A stretch of 26,214 nucleotides of DNA from a virus, in IMG/VR virus record IMGVR_UViG_3300025435_000076, positions 1-26,214 of that record; one strand, written 5' to 3'. Below the pieces are notes generated by a model. The model searched no databases, was not told the DNA's origin, and was given only the letters and a program-made list of their open reading frames with translations. A program made the translations under genes and the position numbers. Below, piece by piece: positions 1,952-26,198 of the stretch (its first letter is position 1; every line of letters begins with the position of its first letter).

Positions 1952-2027
1952 TGGTGCCCCCAGCCCGACTCGAACAGGCCACCTACTGATTACAAATCAG
2001 TTGCTCTACCAGATGAGCTATGGGGGC
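1952..2027 (-). tRNA. tRNA-Thr (anticodon UGU), CCA encoded
   Basis: The minus strand folds as a complete cloverleaf of 76 nt. The acceptor stem is GCCCCCA with TGGGGGC, and the D arm is GCTC...GAGC. The anticodon stem ACTGA/TCAGT carries the loop TTTGTAA, which gives anticodon TGT (at 1992-1994) and decodes ACA. The T arm is GCCTG-TTCGAGT-CGGGC. The discriminator A is followed by an encoded CCA. It sits between a small gene (stop at 2035) and the glycosyltransferase gene (start at 1938), so it is probably cut from the same leftward transcript. Phages often carry such tRNAs to supplement host decoding. Confidence 0.96.
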
Positions 2028-3183: not shown

Positions 3184-3378
3184 TTAAATTTCAACTTCTT
3201 CAAAGAACTGGTCCAACCACTCGTCTAGTCTATCATGCAACGTGGTAGCCAATAACTCTGATCGGCTCATTTGACGATCTAAAGATAGCTCGTCGCTGTT
3301 GATCTCTTTCTCAAACCCTAGACCAGCAATGACTGTGAATGTCTCGCGGTCCAGTTTAATCATATAGGTAGGTATCAT
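3184..3378 (-). CDS. Hypothetical early protein, 64 aa
   Basis: I do not recognise this protein. It begins MIPTYMIKLDRETFTVIAGL, with alternating hydrophobic residues that suggest a beta-strand pair, then turns charged and helical, ending in an acidic WLDQFFEEVEI tail. The ATG at 3378 overlaps the stop of the HTH gene as ATGA and has a GAGG site, so translation is probably coupled. Its position directly after a predicted DNA-binding regulator hints at a partner protein, but no motif shows this. Confidence 0.65.
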   Translation of the reverse strand: MIPTYMIKLDRETFTVIAGLGFEKEINSDELSLDRQMSRSELLATTLHDRLDEWLDQFFEEVEI

Positions 3379-5830: not shown

Positions 5831-6166
5831 TTAGCGGCTGGTTACTTTTACAGCAAACACTGCAGCAGTCTTGCTGGCTGCGGCTACACACTTGGCAATC
5901 ACGCCAGCATCTACACCAGATGCAATCAATGCAGCTTGGAATGCTTTGTTGTCTACAGTCGTGCGGTTGGATTCTGATACGGTAGCTTTGAAGAGATCAC
6001 CGACAAATGTCTTGTCAGCACCAGGCACTGTGGCCTCGTCTTTAAGCTGGTCTTTGATAGAGTCAGCTTGCTCTTTCAAGGTGTCGATCTGAGCAAGCAG
6101 TTGACCGAGATAGTCAACACGGTTGAGGGATAAAGCTAAGTTTTCTTGGGTGGTGAGTGCGTTCAT
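5831..6166 (-). CDS. Conserved phage hypothetical protein, coiled coil, 111 aa
   Basis: This is the first gene behind the strong promoter at 6209-6237. The N-terminal half is a coiled coil (VDYLGQLLAQIDTLKEQADS, then IKDQLKDE). The rest, GDLFKATVSESNRTTVDNKA followed by FQAALIASGVDAGVIAKCVA, matches the layout of a widespread phage family in which a coiled coil precedes a GDLFxATVS...R.T(V/L)D..A domain. Its function is unknown to me. The ATG at 6166 is chosen over codon 6184 because GGAG lies seven bases before it. A first-gene position implies high early expression. Confidence 0.75.
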   Translation of the reverse strand: MNALTTQENLALSLNRVDYLGQLLAQIDTLKEQADSIKDQLKDEATVPGADKTFVGDLFKATVSESNRTTVDNKAFQAALIASGVDAGVIAKCVAAASKTAAVFAVKVTSR

Positions 6167-6208
6167 TTTTCGCTCCTTTCGCATGCGGTCTCAAGTGACC
6201 GTGAGTGA

Positions 6209-6237
6209 ATAATATGCGCACTCAGTCACCTTGTCAA
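6209..6237 (-). promoter_or_regulatory. Strong early promoter with dyad operator (P6220)
   Basis: On the minus strand a perfect TTGACA (6237-6232) and TATTAT (6214-6209) are separated by 17 bp. The interrupted dyad GTGAC-TGAGTG...CACTCA-CG-GTCAC spans the -10 box, as expected for a repressor operator. The -35 box starts five bases after the stop codon of the upstream gene. Its spacer closely resembles that of the promoter at 4023-4051. Confidence 0.85.
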
Positions 6238-6241
6238 CACC

Positions 6242-6517
6242 CTAAGTCCACTTTTTTTGCATCTCATCTAATCTTTTTATTGTGACGTTGAGCGCATCCA
6301 TCTCATTCATCTTTCTAATCAACCACATACGCTTCTGCCCGTGTAATCCGAGGACAGGATTCTGGTGGCAATCTTTGCAGAGAGCCACACATATATAATG
6401 CAATCCCTGCTCAATATGATGGGCGTCACTAGGTCCAAGCGCATCACAAACAGAGCAGGGAAGCTCCTTAACCCGCTGGAGCCAGTCCCTTTCGTCTTTG
6501 GTAAGTTTAGAGTTCAT
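6242..6517 (-). CDS. Ref-like HNH nuclease, 91 aa
   Basis: The zinc and catalytic pattern is visible: Cys21-x2-Cys24 (CSVCDALGPSDAHHI with His33 and His34), then Cys47-x2-Cys50-His51 (CKDCHQNPVLGLHGQKR). This matches the Ref family, an HNH relative first described as the RecA-dependent nuclease of phage P1, in which a DAHH motif and a (G)LHG motif surround the active site. The protein is about half the length of P1 Ref and consists almost only of the core. It probably nicks or cuts DNA during phage recombination. RecA dependence is inferred from the family. It overlaps the gene upstream by ATGA. Confidence 0.75.
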   Translation of the reverse strand: MNSKLTKDERDWLQRVKELPCSVCDALGPSDAHHIEQGLHYICVALCKDCHQNPVLGLHGQKRMWLIRKMNEMDALNVTIKRLDEMQKKWT

Positions 6518-6837
6518 ACCGTTACGCGCTCAATCATACGGTTGTTAGCCTGTTCTGAGCGCCAGATTTCAATGCGCGCCTGTGCAGCTACTAACTCCCA
6601 TCTGATCTTCTCTTCTGCCTCTACAGCGACCCTTAAGCCATCTAAGAGAGCCGTATAGTCCTCATGGGCATAGGCGTCTCGCTCTTGGGCGCCAAGGCTC
6701 TGAGACCCGCTCTGACTCATTAACAATGCCTTAAGGCTCTTCCGGTACTCTTCAAGGTACACGCGCTCTGCCTTAGCTTTAGCAAACTGAGGAGCCATCT
6801 TGATAATGTAGTCAACCGCTTTATTAGGATCTGTCAT
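6514..6837 (-). CDS. Conserved helical phage protein, 107 aa
   Basis: The protein is helical throughout: MTDPNKAVDYIIKMAPQFAK, then AKAERVYLEEYRKSLKALLM, a Ser/Gln-rich linker, and a long helix EDYTALLDGLRVAVEAEEKI. Proteins with AxAERVYLEEYRKSLKALLM are common in phage recombination regions and of unknown function. The start at 6837 overlaps the HNH gene stop as TGATG, which argues against the longer frame. Lying between two nuclease genes, it may be a recombination accessory factor. That is inference. Confidence 0.7.
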   Translation of the reverse strand: MTDPNKAVDYIIKMAPQFAKAKAERVYLEEYRKSLKALLMSQSGSQSLGAQERDAYAHEDYTALLDGLRVAVEAEEKIRWELVAAQARIEIWRSEQANNRMIERVTV

Positions 6838-8536: not shown

Positions 8537-10049
8537 TTTGCTTTCTCCAGATCAACTGTTTCTGTCTGACTTTACTCACAATCTTCTTCTCAAGCGGGAC
8601 ATTAGTTCCCATAGGGTCATACTTAAACTCTGCAGGTGGCTTGCTCTTGGTCAGATCTTGGTAGAGATAGAAAGCCCTTTGCCGCGCCGTTTCCGGCTTC
8701 CCATGAGTCCTGACATAAGTACAAACTTGATTCCAGATGGCCCTATCGTGAGTAACGGATGCCTGCCCAATCTGCAACTCACGCATCTTGCCAATTTCTG
8801 CCTCAATAAGTGTTTGCGAAACGTGTTCGTGCCCACATGACATACAGCGCTTAAAGAACGGCTGATAGCCGCAAACTGGGCAAGATTTATCTTTCTTCTC
8901 ATCATCATCTTTACGTATCGTTTTATCGAGCTTTTCACCATTGTCTAATTGCCCCAATCCGTTAAAGTAAATTTCCTCGAAGTCTTTCTTGAATCGCACG
9001 ATGTTGCCTGAGTGATCCAACAATAAACAATCTTTCTTACCTGGATGTGACCGCAGCCCCCTACCCCACATCTGGATCGCCGTAGACAGGCTTTTACGCA
9101 GCGGACGACAGTCAGCCACACATTCCACGTCAGGCACGTCAAAACCCTTTGCAAGGGCTTCTACGCTGATCAGGATGCGGATCATAGAGTCAGGTCTACG
9201 GTACTCCTTCAGAAGCGCTGCACGCTCTTCTGTGGTCGTGTGAGAGGTAAATACTGCAGCCATGACGCCGATAGCATTAAACCTAGCTGCAAGCTCTTCA
9301 CAATGCTTGATAGTCGCACCAAAGATAATGGTCTTGCGGTTCTCGGCGCGATCCACCCATTCATCTACAACATCGCCGATAATCTCCATGCCGCGTGATT
9401 CGGCCTCAGAGTCTGCCCACTCGCCCGCCACGGTCTTAGCGCCGTACATATCTGGCTTAGTACCAGAGAAGACGCGCATGGGCACTAGAATCCCATCGCG
9501 TGTCAGGTCATACATCGTGGTGGCGTTAATCAGATTGGTAAACAACTTACCTAATCCGTCTGAGAATGGCGTAGCTGACAGCCCAATCACCGCAGCGTCA
9601 GTCTTCATAATGTGGTCGGTCCACACCTTTAATCGAGTGTGGGCTTCATCAACCACAATCACATCTGCCTGCGGCCATTTCCTGCGCGCCAACGTCTGGG
9701 CAGATGCAATCTGAAACGGCGCCCACGGATTCACCCGCCAGTGATTAGCTTGGATGATTCCGTGGTTAGTCAAACCATAACGGTCTGCCGTTTCCGATGT
9801 TTGGTTGATAAGGGTTGTCCTATCACACACAAACACCGCTCTCTTCCCGCGCTGTAAGGCCTCATGAACTATTCTCAGTCCTAGGTACGTCTTACCCGCA
9901 CCTGTAGGAGCCATAATCAACTGATTTTTATGGCCAGCCTTCAACCCGTCCCGTAATAGCTGATGTGCCTTGTTTTGGAACTCACGCGGCTCTGGAAATT
10001 GTGCCTGTAAGTTAGGCTCATCAACTATGTCACTCACTTGATCTAGCAT
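8523..10049 (-). CDS. SF2 DEAD/DEAH-box helicase with C-terminal zinc finger, 508 aa
   Basis: The protein unwinds DNA using ATP and probably drives phage replication or recombination. Motif I is APTGAGKT (47-54), motif II DEAH (134-137), motif III SATP (158-161), and motif VI QMWGRGLR (326-333). Motifs IV and V lie in between (TIIFGATIKHCEEL and SVEALAKGFDVP). This layout matches phage SF2 helicases related to UvsW/RecG-like and RAD25-like enzymes. After the core a zinc finger has Cys390-x2-Cys393...Cys402-x2-Cys405, then a basic tail. It follows the ParB-like gene with a 20-bp overlap and precedes the primase gene, so the three replication proteins are co-translated. Confidence 0.92.
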   Translation of the reverse strand: MLDQVSDIVDEPNLQAQFPEPREFQNKAHQLLRDGLKAGHKNQLIMAPTGAGKTYLGLRIVHEALQRGKRAVFVCDRTTLINQTSETADRYGLTNHGIIQANHWRVNPWAPFQIASAQTLARRKWPQADVIVVDEAHTRLKVWTDHIMKTDAAVIGLSATPFSDGLGKLFTNLINATTMYDLTRDGILVPMRVFSGTKPDMYGAKTVAGEWADSEAESRGMEIIGDVVDEWVDRAENRKTIIFGATIKHCEELAARFNAIGVMAAVFTSHTTTEERAALLKEYRRPDSMIRILISVEALAKGFDVPDVECVADCRPLRKSLSTAIQMWGRGLRSHPGKKDCLLLDHSGNIVRFKKDFEEIYFNGLGQLDNGEKLDKTIRKDDDEKKDKSCPVCGYQPFFKRCMSCGHEHVSQTLIEAEIGKMRELQIGQASVTHDRAIWNQVCTYVRTHGKPETARQRAFYLYQDLTKSKPPAEFKYDPMGTNVPLEKKIVSKVRQKQLIWRKQNAVR

Positions 10050-16826: not shown

Positions 16827-17750
16827 TTAGCCGAATAAACTACTAATAGCACCCAAACCAGATCCAATCAAACTAGGAATACTTGTATTCTGTTGTCCAG
16901 TAATCTGTTGCAATAAGTTTTGAGTAGATCCCAAAGGCGTTTGATATAACCCACCCAATACTGAGCCTAATCCAGAAATCTGTTGCAAAGGCGAAGCCGC
17001 ATAAGCACCAGGCATAGGGCCCGTATATTGCGAAGACACGCTCGTGGGTACTGTTAGACCTTTTAGGATACCCGACTCAGCAGTCAATGCCTGTAAGGGG
17101 AATAGTTGCTGATTCTGTGCGATCTGTTGTTGTTGCGCGCCAAGCGTAGAAAGCGCATTTACATCTTGTAATCCCAAAGCCTGCTGTTGACCGGCTAAAT
17201 TACCCATCTGAGCACCAGCACCCAATCCTAACTGCTGTTGATTCTGTGCCGCCTGTAAAGCCTGTGTATAGCCTTGCTGTAAGGCTTGATCCTGCAAAGA
17301 TGTGATGTTGGTGGCAGCATCTCTTAAAGTGTTCCCTAAGACCTGTGCGCCCCTTTGGGAGCCAAACTGTCCCGTACCTACTGCTCCTGCTGTAGCTTGG
17401 GGCGCAAGATTCTCTTGAATGTTACGCTGACCTAATGTACCAATCTGGTTTACGACATCCTGTGTGTAAGGATTCATAAATTGATTGATGTTCGGGCCTT
17501 GTGCGGCTTGGGTCGTTAAGTTCTCTGCCTGTGTCAGTGCAGGCTGATAGTTACCTACGTTTTGCGCTACATTCTGAAAAGCCTGATTCTGTAATCCAGT
17601 AGCACCAACAAACTGAGCACCTGCTCCCGCCTGTTGCCCCTGTGATGCAAGATTGCTTAGATAATTAGTGTAATAATCAGGCGCAGTTGTGGCCTGCGTC
17701 TGTGTTGTAGTTACGTTTGGTAGCGCACTACCTTGGAATAAGTCAGCCAC
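16827..17750 (-). CDS. Gln-rich virion-associated protein, 307 aa
   Basis: The protein is exceptionally rich in glutamine and alanine. It begins MADLFQGSALPNVTTTQTQA and contains NPYTQDVVNQIGTLGQRNIQ (about 92-111), then helical Gln/Ala repeats and a Gly/Ser-rich end. Phage genes with the same MADLF(x)G...PN(V/I)TTT opening and an NPYTQxVV motif lie in the tail or ejection module and are annotated as structural or of unknown function. A GTG start at 17750 is used, with GGAGG upstream. It overlaps the previous gene by 8 bp. Ejection-protein status is inferred. Confidence 0.65.
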   Translation of the reverse strand: MADLFQGSALPNVTTTQTQATTAPDYYTNYLSNLASQGQQAGAGAQFVGATGLQNQAFQNVAQNVGNYQPALTQAENLTTQAAQGPNINQFMNPYTQDVVNQIGTLGQRNIQENLAPQATAGAVGTGQFGSQRGAQVLGNTLRDAATNITSLQDQALQQGYTQALQAAQNQQQLGLGAGAQMGNLAGQQQALGLQDVNALSTLGAQQQQIAQNQQLFPLQALTAESGILKGLTVPTSVSSQYTGPMPGAYAASPLQQISGLGSVLGGLYQTPLGSTQNLLQQITGQQNTSIPSLIGSGLGAISSLFG

Positions 17751-18993
17751 GTTCGGCCTCCTTCAAATAGCTAGTAAGCTTCTTAGCTTTGGGTGGGATT
17801 TTACTGTCAGGCGCAGAACGCTTATGTCTGCGGATTGCCTCTCTAAATTTGTCTAATTTCTCTGCACCGGCTTTGTTAGACCCATCGCCTAACTGGCTTA
17901 CCGTATCTGCGTCGATCACGTATTCGCCATCAGCAAGCATCGCAGGAATATCATCTGACTGTCCATCACCTTTACCTTGCACATAATGGCTAGGACCACC
18001 TGTGCGGAAAATAGGCTCACCCGGCTCTGCTTCTGGGTGTTGGACGTGATGAGGCTGACCTCCACGCGCAAACATATTTTGTCGCACTGCTTTAATTAAC
18101 TTTGGATCATATTCAGAAAGAGGCAATTTAGTAGAATCAGGAGAAAGATTTAATTGCCTTAACGCCCCAAGCAAATTAGTCAATCCTTGAGGATTAGAAG
18201 TTGAAAACATAGAAGGCTGTAATAAAGTGCGCCCTGTCTTGTCTCCAGATAAGCCAGTCTGTGCCAGCGATCCTAAAATATCTGTAAAATTATTGGTTGT
18301 ATTGGATGTTGGCAAGGAACCTGTCGGTAATGTATTTTGAACGCTAGAGGGTAATCCCGTAGAAGGCGCAGGCGTACCTGTAAGTGACTGACCAGTTGGC
18401 ACATTAGTAACAGTACCAGTAGTAGGATCAACTACTGCGTTAGTCTGTAATCCGCTGGCAAAGTTAGAGGTCGTGCCAATTACATTAGGATTGACTGCAG
18501 TAGGCGCAGAACTTACTCCTGTTGCGGCTGCAGATGTATCTAGTCCACCGCCTGTTGGTAAGCCTCCACCAATGTTACCGGGAATATTTGCTAGCGATCC
18601 CATAGAAGAAGCAACAGGACTTGCGGACAATCCAGCCTGAATGGCAGAGGTTCCTGCATCTACAGCAGGTGCAGCGGCTCCAAACGCGTCAGCAGCACTT
18701 GCAACACTGCTGGGCAAAGATGATAGTCCTGTAGCCGCAACATCAGCCGCCGCAGCATCAGCAGCACCTGCGCCTAAAGCATCAGCAGCACCAGTGCCTA
18801 AAACATCTGCAGCAGTAGCCCCTAAGGCATCAGCAGCAAGACTTGCGCCACCTGTTAGCGCAGCAGCACCAATAGCCGCAATAGGATTGCTGGCTACCGC
18901 TTGCACCACATTTGATGCTACATCAATAATCGGCGAGACAACATCGCTTACTACATTGCTTGCCGCATCAAATACCGAGCTGACTGCGCCCAT
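17743..18993 (-). CDS. Virion protein with Ala-rich N-terminus and C-terminal ADGEYVI domain, 416 aa
   Basis: The first 90 residues are hydrophobic Ala-rich repeats (ADALGATAADVLGTGAADAL). The middle is Thr/Ser/Pro-rich and flexible. The last 85 residues form a recognisable domain with GGPSHYVQGKGDGQSDDIPA, then MLADGEYVIDADTVSQLGDG and KAGAEKLDKFRE. This domain is frequent at the C-terminus of phage virion or tail-module proteins and has no proven role. The Ala-rich repeats could insert in membranes, as expected of an ejection protein. GAGGG lies before the ATG. Confidence 0.7.
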   Translation of the reverse strand: MGAVSSVFDAASNVVSDVVSPIIDVASNVVQAVASNPIAAIGAAALTGGASLAADALGATAADVLGTGAADALGAGAADAAAADVAATGLSSLPSSVASAADAFGAAAPAVDAGTSAIQAGLSASPVASSMGSLANIPGNIGGGLPTGGGLDTSAAATGVSSAPTAVNPNVIGTTSNFASGLQTNAVVDPTTGTVTNVPTGQSLTGTPAPSTGLPSSVQNTLPTGSLPTSNTTNNFTDILGSLAQTGLSGDKTGRTLLQPSMFSTSNPQGLTNLLGALRQLNLSPDSTKLPLSEYDPKLIKAVRQNMFARGGQPHHVQHPEAEPGEPIFRTGGPSHYVQGKGDGQSDDIPAMLADGEYVIDADTVSQLGDGSNKAGAEKLDKFREAIRRHKRSAPDSKIPPKAKKLTSYLKEAERG

Positions 18994-19597: not shown

Positions 19598-21162
19598 GGG
19601 CTCGCTGTTCCGCGCTCATCACCGGCTTCAACCAACATCAGGACCTTACCTAACTGGTAATCGCCGCCTGATACGTTGGATTCAAACCGTAAGCGCATCT
19701 CACGTCTCTGTTCTCTCAGATCAATCTTGAGGGTGCCCGGCTGATAGATATACGGACCCGTGGTGACATCCACATCATCAGCGTATCCCTTGCCCGTCAC
19801 ATATAAGTTCATAGATTGATTTTGAACAAAATCGGGCTCAACCCGAATCAATCTTAGCCATCTATTCGCGCCTACTACGTCACTAGCGCCTGGCCCACCC
19901 GTCACTAAACCAATGTTGTTGGTCTCAAAGTAACTCTGCACCGCATCTACATTGGTCAAATAAACCATGTCTGTGCCGCTTTCGTGCTGCCAGTTCGTAT
20001 ATTTCCCGCTCGTATTCACTTCATTTCCAGCCCATATAGGCTTACGGAATACCTCAGAGAATGTACCGGCAGATCTGCGCGCACCTAATGCCTGTCCTGC
20101 ATCATACCAAGTTTGTTCACGGATATTATATATGATTGCATCATTACATTCAGTAGAATCCCCACGCGGGTAAAACCACCAGATCTCACCGTAGCGCGGG
20201 ACTTTTGTAACCCATACTTTCTGACGCTGATTATAGTTTAAGTTATCAAAGAAGTAGTTTTGATTAACTGTGTTTGGCATCTCCTGCACAACACCGTTAT
20301 ACATCAAGAATCTGTCTACGCCGCACCAGAAATATATGCCGTCATACTCAATCACACATGAGCTAGACATAATAGAGGTTTGTGACGAAATTAAGTCATA
20401 CCGCCAATAATAGGGAGCAGAACCTGTGAAAGTTACGCGGACTAGCGCGTCTAGAGCCCAGAATAGCCCCGCAGGAGAGGTTGTACCACCGCGTACAGGT
20501 AAACCCTTTACGATCTTACCTGTTGCTACGTTGTTGCTATTGGAGTCAGCAGAATTCCAGTCTTGGAAATTTCCCGCAGAGGAATTCTGAATCAGACCGT
20601 GATCACCATACACAAATAGGTACGGGTGAAGGATTACACATCCCCCAGAGACCGCAATCGTGTTACCCGTCGGGTTGGCACCGGAGGTGTCTTTAACGGC
20701 TGATAGAGACGACCCCGGAAAAGCACCGTAGAGCACAGGAGTACTAGTAGTGCTATCAATATTAGTAAGATTTTGCCCAGGGTGAGCAACGATGGTTTGA
20801 GTAGTTCCGTTCGTGTCATAACCAATATCAAATTGCCAAAGATTATTAGGACTTTGAGTAAAATCAGACAGCGTATATTGATACGGACCAGAACCTACGC
20901 CATCATCGTTATCGGTCTGCCATTGCTCTAATCCGTTGTTATACCCAGATACAACATAGTTTAGTCCGTTCTGAGAGGTCATAGTCATCCCGCGAGAGAT
21001 GTTTGTCCCATTCAGAAAAATACCCTTATAACCGCCTATCTTACGCGGACGACCACGCTGAAATCGCACCCACGAGCCATCCCGATAGGATGGAGCATCA
21101 AGCGTGGTTCCATCTCTCTGGATACCGGGCTTGATTTGTAGGGATATAACCTTGTCGGTCAA
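19594..21162 (-). CDS. Packaged-DNA stabilisation protein (P22 gp10-like), 522 aa
   Basis: The protein fits the phage stabilisation family of P22 gp10, a tail-hub component that closes the portal after packaging. It begins VISLQIKPGIQRDGTTLDAP, then YRDGSWVRFQRGRPRKIGGY, followed by beta-propeller-like repeats with many aromatic residues (IYFWCGVDRFLMYNGVVQEM and KVPRYGEIWWFYPRGDSTEC). This N-terminal layout of PG...RDG...VRFRxGxPxKIGG is characteristic. The start is TTG at 21162, overlapping the fibre stop as TTGA. This is the only coupled start in the window that replaces ATGA with TTGA. It is the strongest marker for a short-tailed virion. Confidence 0.85.
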   Translation of the reverse strand: MTDKVISLQIKPGIQRDGTTLDAPSYRDGSWVRFQRGRPRKIGGYKGIFLNGTNISRGMTMTSQNGLNYVVSGYNNGLEQWQTDNDDGVGSGPYQYTLSDFTQSPNNLWQFDIGYDTNGTTQTIVAHPGQNLTNIDSTTSTPVLYGAFPGSSLSAVKDTSGANPTGNTIAVSGGCVILHPYLFVYGDHGLIQNSSAGNFQDWNSADSNSNNVATGKIVKGLPVRGGTTSPAGLFWALDALVRVTFTGSAPYYWRYDLISSQTSIMSSSCVIEYDGIYFWCGVDRFLMYNGVVQEMPNTVNQNYFFDNLNYNQRQKVWVTKVPRYGEIWWFYPRGDSTECNDAIIYNIREQTWYDAGQALGARRSAGTFSEVFRKPIWAGNEVNTSGKYTNWQHESGTDMVYLTNVDAVQSYFETNNIGLVTGGPGASDVVGANRWLRLIRVEPDFVQNQSMNLYVTGKGYADDVDVTTGPYIYQPGTLKIDLREQRREMRLRFESNVSGGDYQLGKVLMLVEAGDERGTASP

Positions 21163-22373
21163 AATGTTCCCCCGCCTACTCCGGCTGGGAATGTCACACC
21201 AGTAGAGGAAAAGCTTGCAGACGTTGTTCCGCCAGAGCTAATTGACATCGTTCCGGCTGAAGGTAGGTATAAACCTGTATTAGTGCTGCCTGAAAAGTTC
21301 AGAGAAGGACTAGCAGCAGATCCATTGCCTAAAGTAAGGCTAGTAATCGTGCTTAAAGAGGCCGTAGACGCGTTATAGACGTTTGTACCATCACAGATGG
21401 CTATAACTGTCTGGTTCTGCGGCAAAACGACTGTAGAGCCTCCAATCGCAGAGGTTCTGAATGTTAGGGTAAACGCACCAGTTGTATTATTCTGGAGCGA
21501 ATAGAGCTGTACCGTAGATGGCAAGATAACCGTACAGTTAGAAGTCAGCGTTCCGTAATATTCCTGAATCGCATTCTGACCTTCCACGCTTGTCAGCGTT
21601 ACCGTCCCGCCTGTTACTAGCTTAGACAGAATGGTGAAGTTAAACTGTGAGGGTAATGACGATCCAAACGAGTTAAATCCTGATCCAGAACAGACAATTA
21701 CGATAGATTGCGTAAGTTGAAGCTGAATAGACGCAGATCCATCAATTAAGTCTGTACCCTGACAGGCAATCGTTAAGATTCCAGATCCGTTGTTGCGGAT
21801 CATCACAAACCAGTTATTACCCACTCCAGATGATGGCAAGGTAACTGTACCTACACCCGCATCCCAGACTATGAAAGAGGCTCTATCAGCCGCTGACAGC
21901 GTTCTGGCACTATAAGTAGCAGAATAGTTATAGGCTTGGTTAAGCGTTGTGCCGATTGGCGTTAATCCATAACCAGCCAAAGAAGAAGCATTGGCAGAAG
22001 AGGTACCAGCACCAAATGTAACAATAGACCAGGTACCAGCAAGAGTAGTATTGTCAGTGACATAGATATATTCCGCCATTCCCGATGAAATCGAGATAAT
22101 TGTCCCTAAACTGTTATCCAAAACAGTAAAGGGATTGGATCCTACGTTACGGATAATAGTCGCCTGACCCACCGAGACTTCGGTAGCAGGAGGCATAATC
22201 AGATTTAATCCGGCTGTGGAAGCGGTTACTTCTACAATATTCGCAACAACCGAATTGGTATTACCATTGACTGGCCACTGCAAATAAGTATCCGCAGTAA
22301 TAGATAGCTTCTCGTATCCTACTTGTGAGGGGCTGATTGTTTGACCAGTGAACGGAGAGGTATACGAGGTCAT
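21159..22373 (-). CDS. Tail fibre/virion surface-like protein, 404 aa
   Basis: The protein is rich in Ser, Thr, Gly and Asn and is predicted to be all beta. It has repeated strands like GTVTLPSSGVGNNWFVMIRN and NATIIRNVGSNPF-type units, and ends with SLNFSGSTNTGLYLPSAGTM followed by SISSGGTTSASFSSTGVTF. The NTGLY...GT(M/V)xIS.GG...F element is common near the end of phage tail-fibre proteins. There is no intramolecular chaperone after it. I place the start at 22373 (MTSYTSPFTGQTI), because the longer frame overlaps the adaptor gene. A receptor-contact role is inferred. Its position between adaptor and gp10-like genes is unusual for a main fibre. Confidence 0.7.
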   Translation of the reverse strand: MTSYTSPFTGQTISPSQVGYEKLSITADTYLQWPVNGNTNSVVANIVEVTASTAGLNLIMPPATEVSVGQATIIRNVGSNPFTVLDNSLGTIISISSGMAEYIYVTDNTTLAGTWSIVTFGAGTSSANASSLAGYGLTPIGTTLNQAYNYSATYSARTLSAADRASFIVWDAGVGTVTLPSSGVGNNWFVMIRNNGSGILTIACQGTDLIDGSASIQLQLTQSIVIVCSGSGFNSFGSSLPSQFNFTILSKLVTGGTVTLTSVEGQNAIQEYYGTLTSNCTVILPSTVQLYSLQNNTTGAFTLTFRTSAIGGSTVVLPQNQTVIAICDGTNVYNASTASLSTITSLTLGNGSAASPSLNFSGSTNTGLYLPSAGTMSISSGGTTSASFSSTGVTFPAGVGGGTF

Positions 22374-22374
22374 A

Positions 22375-23010
22375 TTAGGAATCCAGTGCCACAGCCTGGC
22401 GATCCGCAATTCGAGTAACATCCTCGGCTTTCAGCGCTTGCATGGCTTGATCGTATTTTTGTTGGAAAATCTGACGCTGATCGTCTTTTAAGAACATCTG
22501 CGCCTGTAATAGCGTCCCAAATAACATCACATTAGGCGCATTCGTAGTCAACCAGTTGGTCTGATTGGTAGAGGAAAGCGGAGCTATACGCTCGTAATAC
22601 AACACTTCAAATTTATAATTCTTGTCCGGCATAGGAGCTAAGATCCACCAGTCATAGTTATAATCAGCATAGAACTGAGGATAACCTGTTACTGTCGCAT
22701 CCGGCGCATATTCCAGAATATATTCATATTTACGCAATAAAACAGGTTGCTTGATGCCGTTTACAGTTACGTTGAAAGAAACTGTCTTCCTCCAACGGGC
22801 GGGCTTCTGCAAAAGATTGTTCCCGCCTAATATCTGGCCTTCAGCAACCTGTAACTGACCTAGCGTCTTAATTTGCTGGGCAACCTCATACTCACATAGC
22901 GTAATGAATGTGGGAATTTGGTTAATAGTAGCCTGATCCGAACGCTCCAAATATTGAAGAACGGTATCCGTCAAACTGCTGTATGTCATTACCCAGCTGG
23001 GAGTTGTCAT
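22375..23010 (-). CDS. Tail adaptor (head-tail joining) protein, 211 aa
   Basis: The protein is a likely adaptor, related to phage adaptor families (P22 gp4-like or T7 gp11-like roles) that link portal and tail. MTYSSLTDTVLQYLERSDQA, then LITLCEYEVAQ-type helices and a strand-rich centre with GGNNLLQKPARWRKTVSFNV and YPQFYADYNYDWWILAPMPD, then FEVLYYERIAPLSSTNQTNW and helices near the end, are characteristic. The LP..WR..(K/R)...(D/N)W...P.P pattern is typical of this family. The Shine-Dalgarno site is poor. The gene is followed 1 bp later by the fibre-like gene. Confidence 0.75.
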   Translation of the reverse strand: MTTPSWVMTYSSLTDTVLQYLERSDQATINQIPTFITLCEYEVAQQIKTLGQLQVAEGQILGGNNLLQKPARWRKTVSFNVTVNGIKQPVLLRKYEYILEYAPDATVTGYPQFYADYNYDWWILAPMPDKNYKFEVLYYERIAPLSSTNQTNWLTTNAPNVMLFGTLLQAQMFLKDDQRQIFQQKYDQAMQALKAEDVTRIADRQAVALDS

Positions 23011-24017: not shown

Positions 24018-24455
24018 TTATGAATAGTAGCGAACGCCACCCTTATCAATTATGAGTGCTTGACGTCTGGGCGTATCACCCTCATGGTTAGGCACAGAGA
24101 TGTGCGTCCACGAGTTAAACTCTCTAATCACTTGGTCAAACTGTAGATCAGAGGCGATTACAGCCTGTACAACCTCATCAGGGGTCATTCCTGGTACTCT
24201 GATATCAGCCGCACATCCTAAACGATGCTGCGAGGTATCCTTGGATCCTACAGCGTCATTTACCTTCTTAGAGCGATAAGCCGAGTTAATCATAACAGGC
24301 TTGCCGCCTAACATATCCTTGACCTGCTCCAGAAACGCCGATAGGCGCGTCAGGTTCGCTAATTCGCCTTCGGTTGGGATGTTATCCCATCCATTGCGTA
24401 CAGCCACGTCAGAATGAGTCATTTCCTCGTAGGAAAAGTGTTCGCTTAATTGCAT
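24018..24455 (-). CDS. Endolysin, M15-type peptidase, 145 aa
   Basis: The protein is an M15 (peptidase_M15_3-like) zinc D,D- or L,D-peptidase that cuts peptidoglycan cross-links. INSAYRSKKVNDAVG (56-70) precedes the zinc motif HRLGCAADI with His77 and Asp84, and WTHIS supplies His118. These three residues hold the zinc in this family. The start MQLSEHFSYEEMTHSDVAVR is typical of phage members. There is no signal peptide, so a holin is needed for release, and the previous gene supplies a candidate. GGAG is eight bases before the ATG, inside the end of the holin gene. Confidence 0.92.
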   Translation of the reverse strand: MQLSEHFSYEEMTHSDVAVRNGWDNIPTEGELANLTRLSAFLEQVKDMLGGKPVMINSAYRSKKVNDAVGSKDTSQHRLGCAADIRVPGMTPDEVVQAVIASDLQFDQVIREFNSWTHISVPNHEGDTPRRQALIIDKGGVRYYS

Positions 24456-25535: not shown

Positions 25536-26009
25536 TTATACTTGCGTTGTAGTTAAAGCAGCTACTTGTGTTGTATCCAAAGATGCAACTTGTGTAGTGT
25601 CTACAGCAGCGATTTGCGTTGTATCAACAGGAGGCGTTGCTTGTAATGCGGCAACTTGGTCTGTTGTCAATGCAACGGTTTGATCTGTTGTCAAAGCAGC
25701 AGCCTGATCAGTAGTCATAACCAAAAGCTGACTTGTGGTCATTGCAGCTACTTGATCAGAAGTTAATGCAGCTACTTGATCTGTAGATAATGTAGCAACA
25801 GTATCTGTAGGCAATGCTGCAACATCATCTGTGCTCATTGTTGTTACATCAACAGTATCATCAGAATCGCTAGAATCATCTTGATCATCAGAATCATCTC
25901 CGATCAATCCTAATTTTTCAGACAAGTAATCCACAAAAGCCTGGATTTCTTCTTTGACTTCGCTTTGGAATTCCGCCAAGTGATCTTGAATCTCTTGAAG
26001 TATACTCAT
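25536..26009 (-). CDS. Octapeptide-repeat protein, 157 aa
   Basis: After a helical N-terminus (MSILQEIQDHLAEFQSEVKE) and an Asp/Ser-rich linker (about 38-58), eight tandem octapeptides run from residue 59 to 122 with consensus (S/T)TDQVAAL. A proline-containing break (123-128) and three further units with (D)TTQVA(A/S)L end the protein. Such TTxQVxAL repeats are known from large bacterial secreted or adhesion-like proteins, where they form regular solenoids. In a phage it may be a fibre or decoration protein, or interact with the host surface. A GAGG site precedes the ATG. Copy number may vary through slippage. Confidence 0.75.
   Translation of the reverse strand: MSILQEIQDHLAEFQSEVKEEIQAFVDYLSEKLGLIGDDSDDQDDSSDSDDTVDVTTMSTDDVAALPTDTVATLSTDQVAALTSDQVAAMTTSQLLVMTTDQAAALTTDQTVALTTDQVAALQATPPVDTTQIAAVDTTQVASLDTTQVAALTTTQV
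25539..25835 (-). repeat. Imperfect 24-bp tandem coding repeats
   Basis: The region encodes eleven full octapeptide units and one partial, matching a 24-bp period. Third-position differences between units show that the array has diverged at DNA level while the peptide pattern is kept, with an 18-bp interruption after the eighth unit. Confidence 0.75.
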
Positions 26010-26018
26010 AATAGCCTC

Positions 26019-26198
26019 TTAGTTGGTAGAACTAGGTGCGGTATCAGGAGCAGCAGGAGCCTCTACTGGCTCAGGAAACTGCCCATTTGCTTCTTGCTGA
26101 ACTGCGGCAATAAAACCCTGCACTTCAACAAAGGGTTGCTTACCCAAGTAACCTAAAATTGCGTTTACTAACTCTACTGATAAAGTGATTTTATCCAC
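26019..26198 (-). CDS. Small hypothetical protein, 59 aa
   Basis: A GTG-initiated gene encodes MDKITLSVELVNAILGYLGK, then QPFVEVQGFIAAVQQEANGQ and a Pro/Ala-rich tail ending PDTAPSSTN. GGAG lies seven bases before the GTG. The first half is an amphipathic helix-turn-helix-like unit (LSVELVNAILGYLGKQPF) and the second is flexible. A family with a (L)VNAILGYLGxQP(F/Y).(E)V core occurs in phage genomes near structural genes; no role is known. It is directly upstream of the octapeptide-repeat gene. Confidence 0.6.
   Translation of the reverse strand: MDKITLSVELVNAILGYLGKQPFVEVQGFIAAVQQEANGQFPEPVEAPAAPDTAPSSTN

Follow-up and report, generated by a model that had tools for sequence, protein, structure and literature searches.

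The stretch of DNA analysed here, referred to as the window, is a complete IMG/VR virus record of 26,214 bases. Close to its end, a gene on the minus strand codes for a small protein in which eight-residue units are repeated in tandem, and the gene context of the window includes tail-fibre-like, adaptor and endolysin genes. The features of this region are as follows.

26019-26198, minus strand: upstream small protein of the VNAILGYLG type, array-free in the window; its homologues in loci L100, L101 and L209 are array-bearing
26010-26018, minus strand: nine-base gap GAGGCTATT upstream of the repeat-gene start, containing GAGG
25536-26009, minus strand: repeat gene, open reading frame of 157 amino acids plus stop, matching PF20080 with 78.9 bits (cut-off 26.4)
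25908-26009, minus strand: N-terminal helical head, residues 1-34; helix predicted for residues 3-34, pLDDT block means 87-94 over residues 1-30
25839-25907, minus strand: acidic linker, residues 35-57, seen in the sequence; pLDDT block means 62 and 54 (residues 31-50) and 83 (residues 51-60)
25647-25838, minus strand: first block of eight octads, residues 58-121, from sequence and model; unit order as in L209
25629-25646, minus strand: six-residue break LQATPP, residues 122-127, aligned to the LNAAP that follows unit 8 in L209
25539-25628, minus strand: second block, residues 128-157, three octads and a terminal hexamer up to the stop; low pLDDT
25347-25532, minus strand: downstream gene KSKKWIQEAI, 93% identical in L019, L100 and L101, used as junction marker
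24018-24455, minus strand: endolysin (context), peptidase M15_3 / phrog_894
21159-22421, minus strand: tail-fibre-like protein (context), phrog_12796, E 2.5e-10

The reading frame and the eleven octapeptide units given in the first-pass annotation were found to be exact; a terminal hexamer, which forms a twelfth unit, and the six-residue break had been left unmentioned there. The array is split by LQATPP into 8 + 4 units. In the first block, the units read, in order, MSTDDVAA, LPTDTVAT, LSTDQVAA, LTSDQVAA, MTTSQLLV, MTTDQAAA, LTTDQTVA and LTTDQVAA, and the second block consists of VDTTQIAA, VDTTQVAS and LDTTQVAA, followed by LTTTQV and the stop. The helical head, which reads MSILQEIQDHLAEFQSEVKEEIQAFVDYLSEKLGL, and the acidic linker had also been proposed before, and both were recovered in the sequence and in the AlphaFold2 model; the proposed phage context agrees with the tail-region genes around the repeat gene. 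The GAGG in the nine-base gap could serve as a ribosome-binding site for the repeat gene. Elsewhere in the window, a tRNA-Thr (TGT) gene was identified at 1952-2027 (minus strand), just upstream of the 757-1938 frame, and tandem repeats of period 15 and 24 are present at 18734-18838, in an Ala/Gly-rich stretch of the gene at 17743-18993.

Repeat family and predicted structure

For the 64-residue first block, a lag-8 self-identity of 32 positions was obtained, compared to a maximum of 18 in shuffled sequences (0 of 10,000 shuffles reached 32), and Tandem Repeats Finder reported rows of period 24 nt between 25540 and 25832. In addition to this tandem octad period, the protein has a PF20080 (ALTTAQ repeat) score above the curated cut-off, with E 2.2e-22. 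The repeat family is already known; its arrangement here is new. Searches of Pfam, PHROGs and NCBIfam for a known structural family gave PF20080 and weak matches without a known structural role. Head and linker alone matched phrog_846 weakly (E 0.0077; E 0.0052 for the whole protein), and an NCBIfam match to DNA polymerase III psi (E 0.0079, 16.4 bits compared to a cut-off of 150.55) was rejected as a chance match. Among the papers listed in literature searches, none dealt with what ALTTAQ repeats do, nor with ALTTAQ repeats in phages.

In the AlphaFold2 model of the window protein, the helix of the head is followed by a low-confidence linker and by one short helix per octad, with pLDDT block means of 90-97 over residues 61-120 and of 52-67 beyond, in the second block. 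As the 22-sequence alignment used for the model consists of slices of the repeat, it may have biased the prediction towards a repetitive structure. For the L209 protein, which has a different head, likewise one helix per octad was predicted, with block means of 92-95 over residues 51-120. The compact solenoid suggested in the first-pass annotation is supported as a prediction. Foldseek searches gave no match to a solved or a viral structure with an E-value as low as 0.001.

Arrays at the junction, in other phages and in bacteria

At the syntenic junction, three states of the array were identified among relatives whose junction neighbours are 60-95% identical: it is a separate gene in the window, it is fused to the upstream small protein in L100 and L101, and it is absent from L019. 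In L019, the KSKKWIQEAI gene starts four bases after the end of the upstream small protein. In L100 and L101, the upstream protein ends in the four-unit array VSTDSIDA LTTDSVAA LSTDQ[VA]AA LSTEQV. Among 80 loci with the downstream gene, the upstream frame was called by script in 67, and only the two of L100 and L101 carry an array. Since arrays are this rare even among syntenic relatives (2/80), the module is dispensable. One of the 67 upstream frames, in L176, codes for a helix-and-linker protein that closes with a single unit. The frames L176:2699-2995 and L203:292-588 both have a helix-like head and an Ala/Pro/Glu-rich linker, end in AVTTEQV and lie directly upstream of a KSKKW-type gene; judged by their sequences, these proteins might be a one-unit analogue of the window repeat gene. 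No arrays were found in 80 relatives of the endolysin, except insofar as L019 doubles as a junction relative, so that the endolysin is no useful marker for the array.

Since tblastn with the repeat protein gave no relatives in viral contigs or INPHARED phages, where low-complexity filtering possibly hides repeats, DNA patterns were used to find arrays. Two patterns resulted in 14 and then 17 viral stretches with an ALTTAQ match. Of the 17, six are short arrays at the C-terminus of small proteins (L004, L009, L010, L013, L014 and L016), nine are long phage-type arrays, several of them mutual copies (L005, L006, L007, L008, L012, L017, L190, L191 and L192), and the remaining two, L011 and L015, are frames of very great length. 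The array ends flush with the C-terminus in five of the six short-array loci, all but L013, as it does in the window and in L101. In contrast, none of the 50 visible ends of bacterial arrays is flush (77 loci, 27 of which run off); judged by their titles, these loci belong mostly to Burkholderiales and Rhizobiales. Of the description of the repeat as best known in bacterial proteins and not in phages, the first part is supported in that the repeat also occurs in long bacterial proteins, and the second is not supported, given the 17 stretches on viral contigs and phrog_15773. The latter, of unknown function, matches the long phage arrays L006, L008, L190 and L192, but the window protein gave no match to it with an E-value of 1 or less. 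In L008, L190 and L192, the long ALTTAQ array is N-terminal, and the C-terminal stretch has a similar sequence near its end, which we read as beta-like.

Comparison of these loci shows the array to be a swappable, portable C-terminal module, carried in this group of phages by different small proteins of the tail-fibre region. After the array, L209 has a baseplate wedge gene and L016 has head-tail adaptor and head closure genes.

Unit divergence and the conserved eight-unit block

According to the first-pass annotation, a variable copy number would make the array a fast-evolving trait. No pair of window units exceeds 88% DNA identity, with strong differences at synonymous sites, and pN/pS is 0.40 among adjacent units and 0.56 among all pairs. 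These values, below 1, suggest constraint at the protein level among the array units. L100 and L101, with about 87% DNA identity, have four units each, and L004 and L014 (93%) have five each by counter. Direct comparison of L004 with L010/L016 (78%) showed a difference of one unit; the simple counter gave five for all of them, as some units are imperfect. From these few pairs, array length changes look slow. Fast copy-number variation is unsupported, because the units have diverged at synonymous sites and unit number is kept in close relatives.

A further array was identified in L209, a locus found through a different gene. Here, a homologue of the upstream small protein (38% identity over 39-40 residues, E 3e-4) is fused to eight units, which align without gaps and in conserved order to units 1-8 of the window and the following LQATP (54% over 69 residues). 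The in-register score was 176, while all seven cyclic shifts gave 113-137 and 25 of the 40,320 permutations scored as high; this order test rests on a single array, and a few bacterial segments came near the same order excess in a scan across all the loci collected. Identity to L209 was 0.70, 0.84 and 0.45 at first, second and third codon positions. In our interpretation, selection would preserve the unit order and the shape of this block, without varying its length.

These data bear on the possibility that recombination has spread the array as a low-complexity expansion, close to neutral, on genes that the phage can do without. The absence of the array from L019 and most of the 80 syntenic loci would fit such an expansion, as would the one-unit difference between L004 and L010/L016. 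However, the pN/pS below 1 among units, the conserved unit order and the excess of second-position (84%) over third-position (45%) identity to L209 argue against it, and we consider it improbable.

Possible roles and comparison to known systems

The reading we favour, with about an even chance of being right, is that the repeat gene, from an uncultured tailed phage, codes for an accessory protein of its tail-fibre region, in which the ALTTAQ short-helix solenoid is a portable module and the array a docking surface. Each octad is predicted to start a helix at [TS]T, with Leu/Met/Val and Ala probably packed inside. The N-terminal helix would bind or oligomerise in tail assembly, the acidic linker would give reach, and the rigid solenoid would present a docking face to a partner, for instance a protein of the fibre, the baseplate or the host surface. 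The genes of the small array-bearing proteins lie between those for tail fibres and those for lysis, the baseplate or the connector, and the protein would act in tail assembly or in the virion.

The tail-fibre neighbourhood is also what would be expected if, as proposed in the first-pass annotation, the virion displayed the array as an adhesion or decoration domain in contact with the host, a role for which the beta-like C-terminal stretch after the long phage arrays (L008, L190 and L192) speaks as well. Short arrays, however, end the protein with no extra domain, and no sugar- or receptor-binding homology was found in Pfam, PHROGs and NCBIfam, so that we regard this role as rather unlikely, though worth keeping in view. 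Alternatively, the protein might act in the cytoplasm as an assembly factor or chaperone of the tail fibres, with the array holding the client. The protein is small and its gene lies beside fibre genes, and one array-bearing protein (L016, phrog_21526) has a weak similarity to XkdW; but at E 0.071 this match does not reach significance, and the window protein matched no chaperone family in Pfam, PHROGs and NCBIfam. A chaperone is an unlikely assignment on this evidence.

A variant of the docking reading concerns the C-terminal end itself. In L016, small proteins at 5869-6261, 6297-6659 and 8737-9114 end in AFTTSQV, IFTTTQV and ALTTDQI; the L014 frames ending at 3327 and 4574 have terminal PALTTSQV and ALTTDQI, and L209:3001-3423 ends in AATTAQI. 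Over 288 loci, a flush [ST]Tx[QE][VIL] end was counted in 11 of 4,818 frame ends compared to 0.89 expected, an excess which is partly circular, since array genes account for 6 of the 11 and some of the loci had been selected because they carry arrays. The MSHFAKV family makes it less likely that the flush end is a tag common among phages, as it has this end in only 1 of 80 viral loci and in none of 10 proteins from 9 INPHARED records (of 30 listed). The [VI]-COOH end may be incidental.

A phrog_81-like 2OG-Fe(II) oxygenase is encoded near the array genes on the contigs of L100, L101, L010, L016, L014 and L209, of which L010 and L016 are nearly identical. It was not found in L004, where the contig begins at the array gene, nor in L013, L176 and L203. 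Because the oxygenase is also present in 4 of the 80 loci with the downstream gene and in 39 of 80 with MSHFAKV, its link to the array may be one of shared neighbourhood. In animals, FIH hydroxylates ankyrin repeats. It is a doubtful proposal that ALTTAQ arrays form a shared C-terminal docking tag, by which unrelated small proteins of one phage bind a common tail partner or each other, even via one unit ending in [ST]Tx[QE][VI]-COOH, and, by extension, that the oxygenase encoded just upstream in several loci hydroxylates the array as FIH does ankyrin. In a passage of a cyanophage paper (PMC9146016), such oxygenases are proposed to act in DNA repair.

If the accessory tail-region reading is right, phages reuse a simple helical screw of eight-residue units as a C-terminal plug-in that passes from one tail-region protein to another, and the short phage arrays offer a small, well-defined system in which to study the function of ALTTAQ repeats. 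The bacterial members of PF20080 differ from this phage protein of 157 residues with its 12-unit C-terminal array, since their frames comprise 367-1399 amino acids (seven with both ends in the locus). Among the top Foldseek rows for both models were weak, non-significant matches to the short-helix superhelices of mesothelin and the MgtE N-domain (E 0.37 or worse), with VIA Z scores of 5.5 and 6.0 to the window model, under 8. As mesothelin, according to a passage in PMC10035497, folds into a right-handed solenoid built from short helices, the likeness to the array model is one of arrangement, and for both proteins a shared arrangement is at most what the models suggest. TAL effector repeats have similar helix starts, of the type LTPxQVVAIA, and gave a whole-chain phmmer E of 9.2e-9, yet no single stretch passes E 1, and their repeat length of 33-35 residues, as given in a section of PMC3978159, is unlike the octads described here.

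The closest solved structure by sequence is HeliScrew4 (PDB 9zem), with a phmmer E of 2.6e-20 over residues 54-123 and a profile E of 2.9e-25, so that the octads resemble those of a HeliScrew-type solenoid. HeliScrew4 was absent from the Foldseek matches, and the likeness described here is one of sequence. A literature search on the HeliScrew name found no paper; from its name and regular sequence, HeliScrew4 is presumably a designed protein. If the interpretation of the array as a portable docking module is right, this octad protein of the PDB is linked to natural, short examples in phages.
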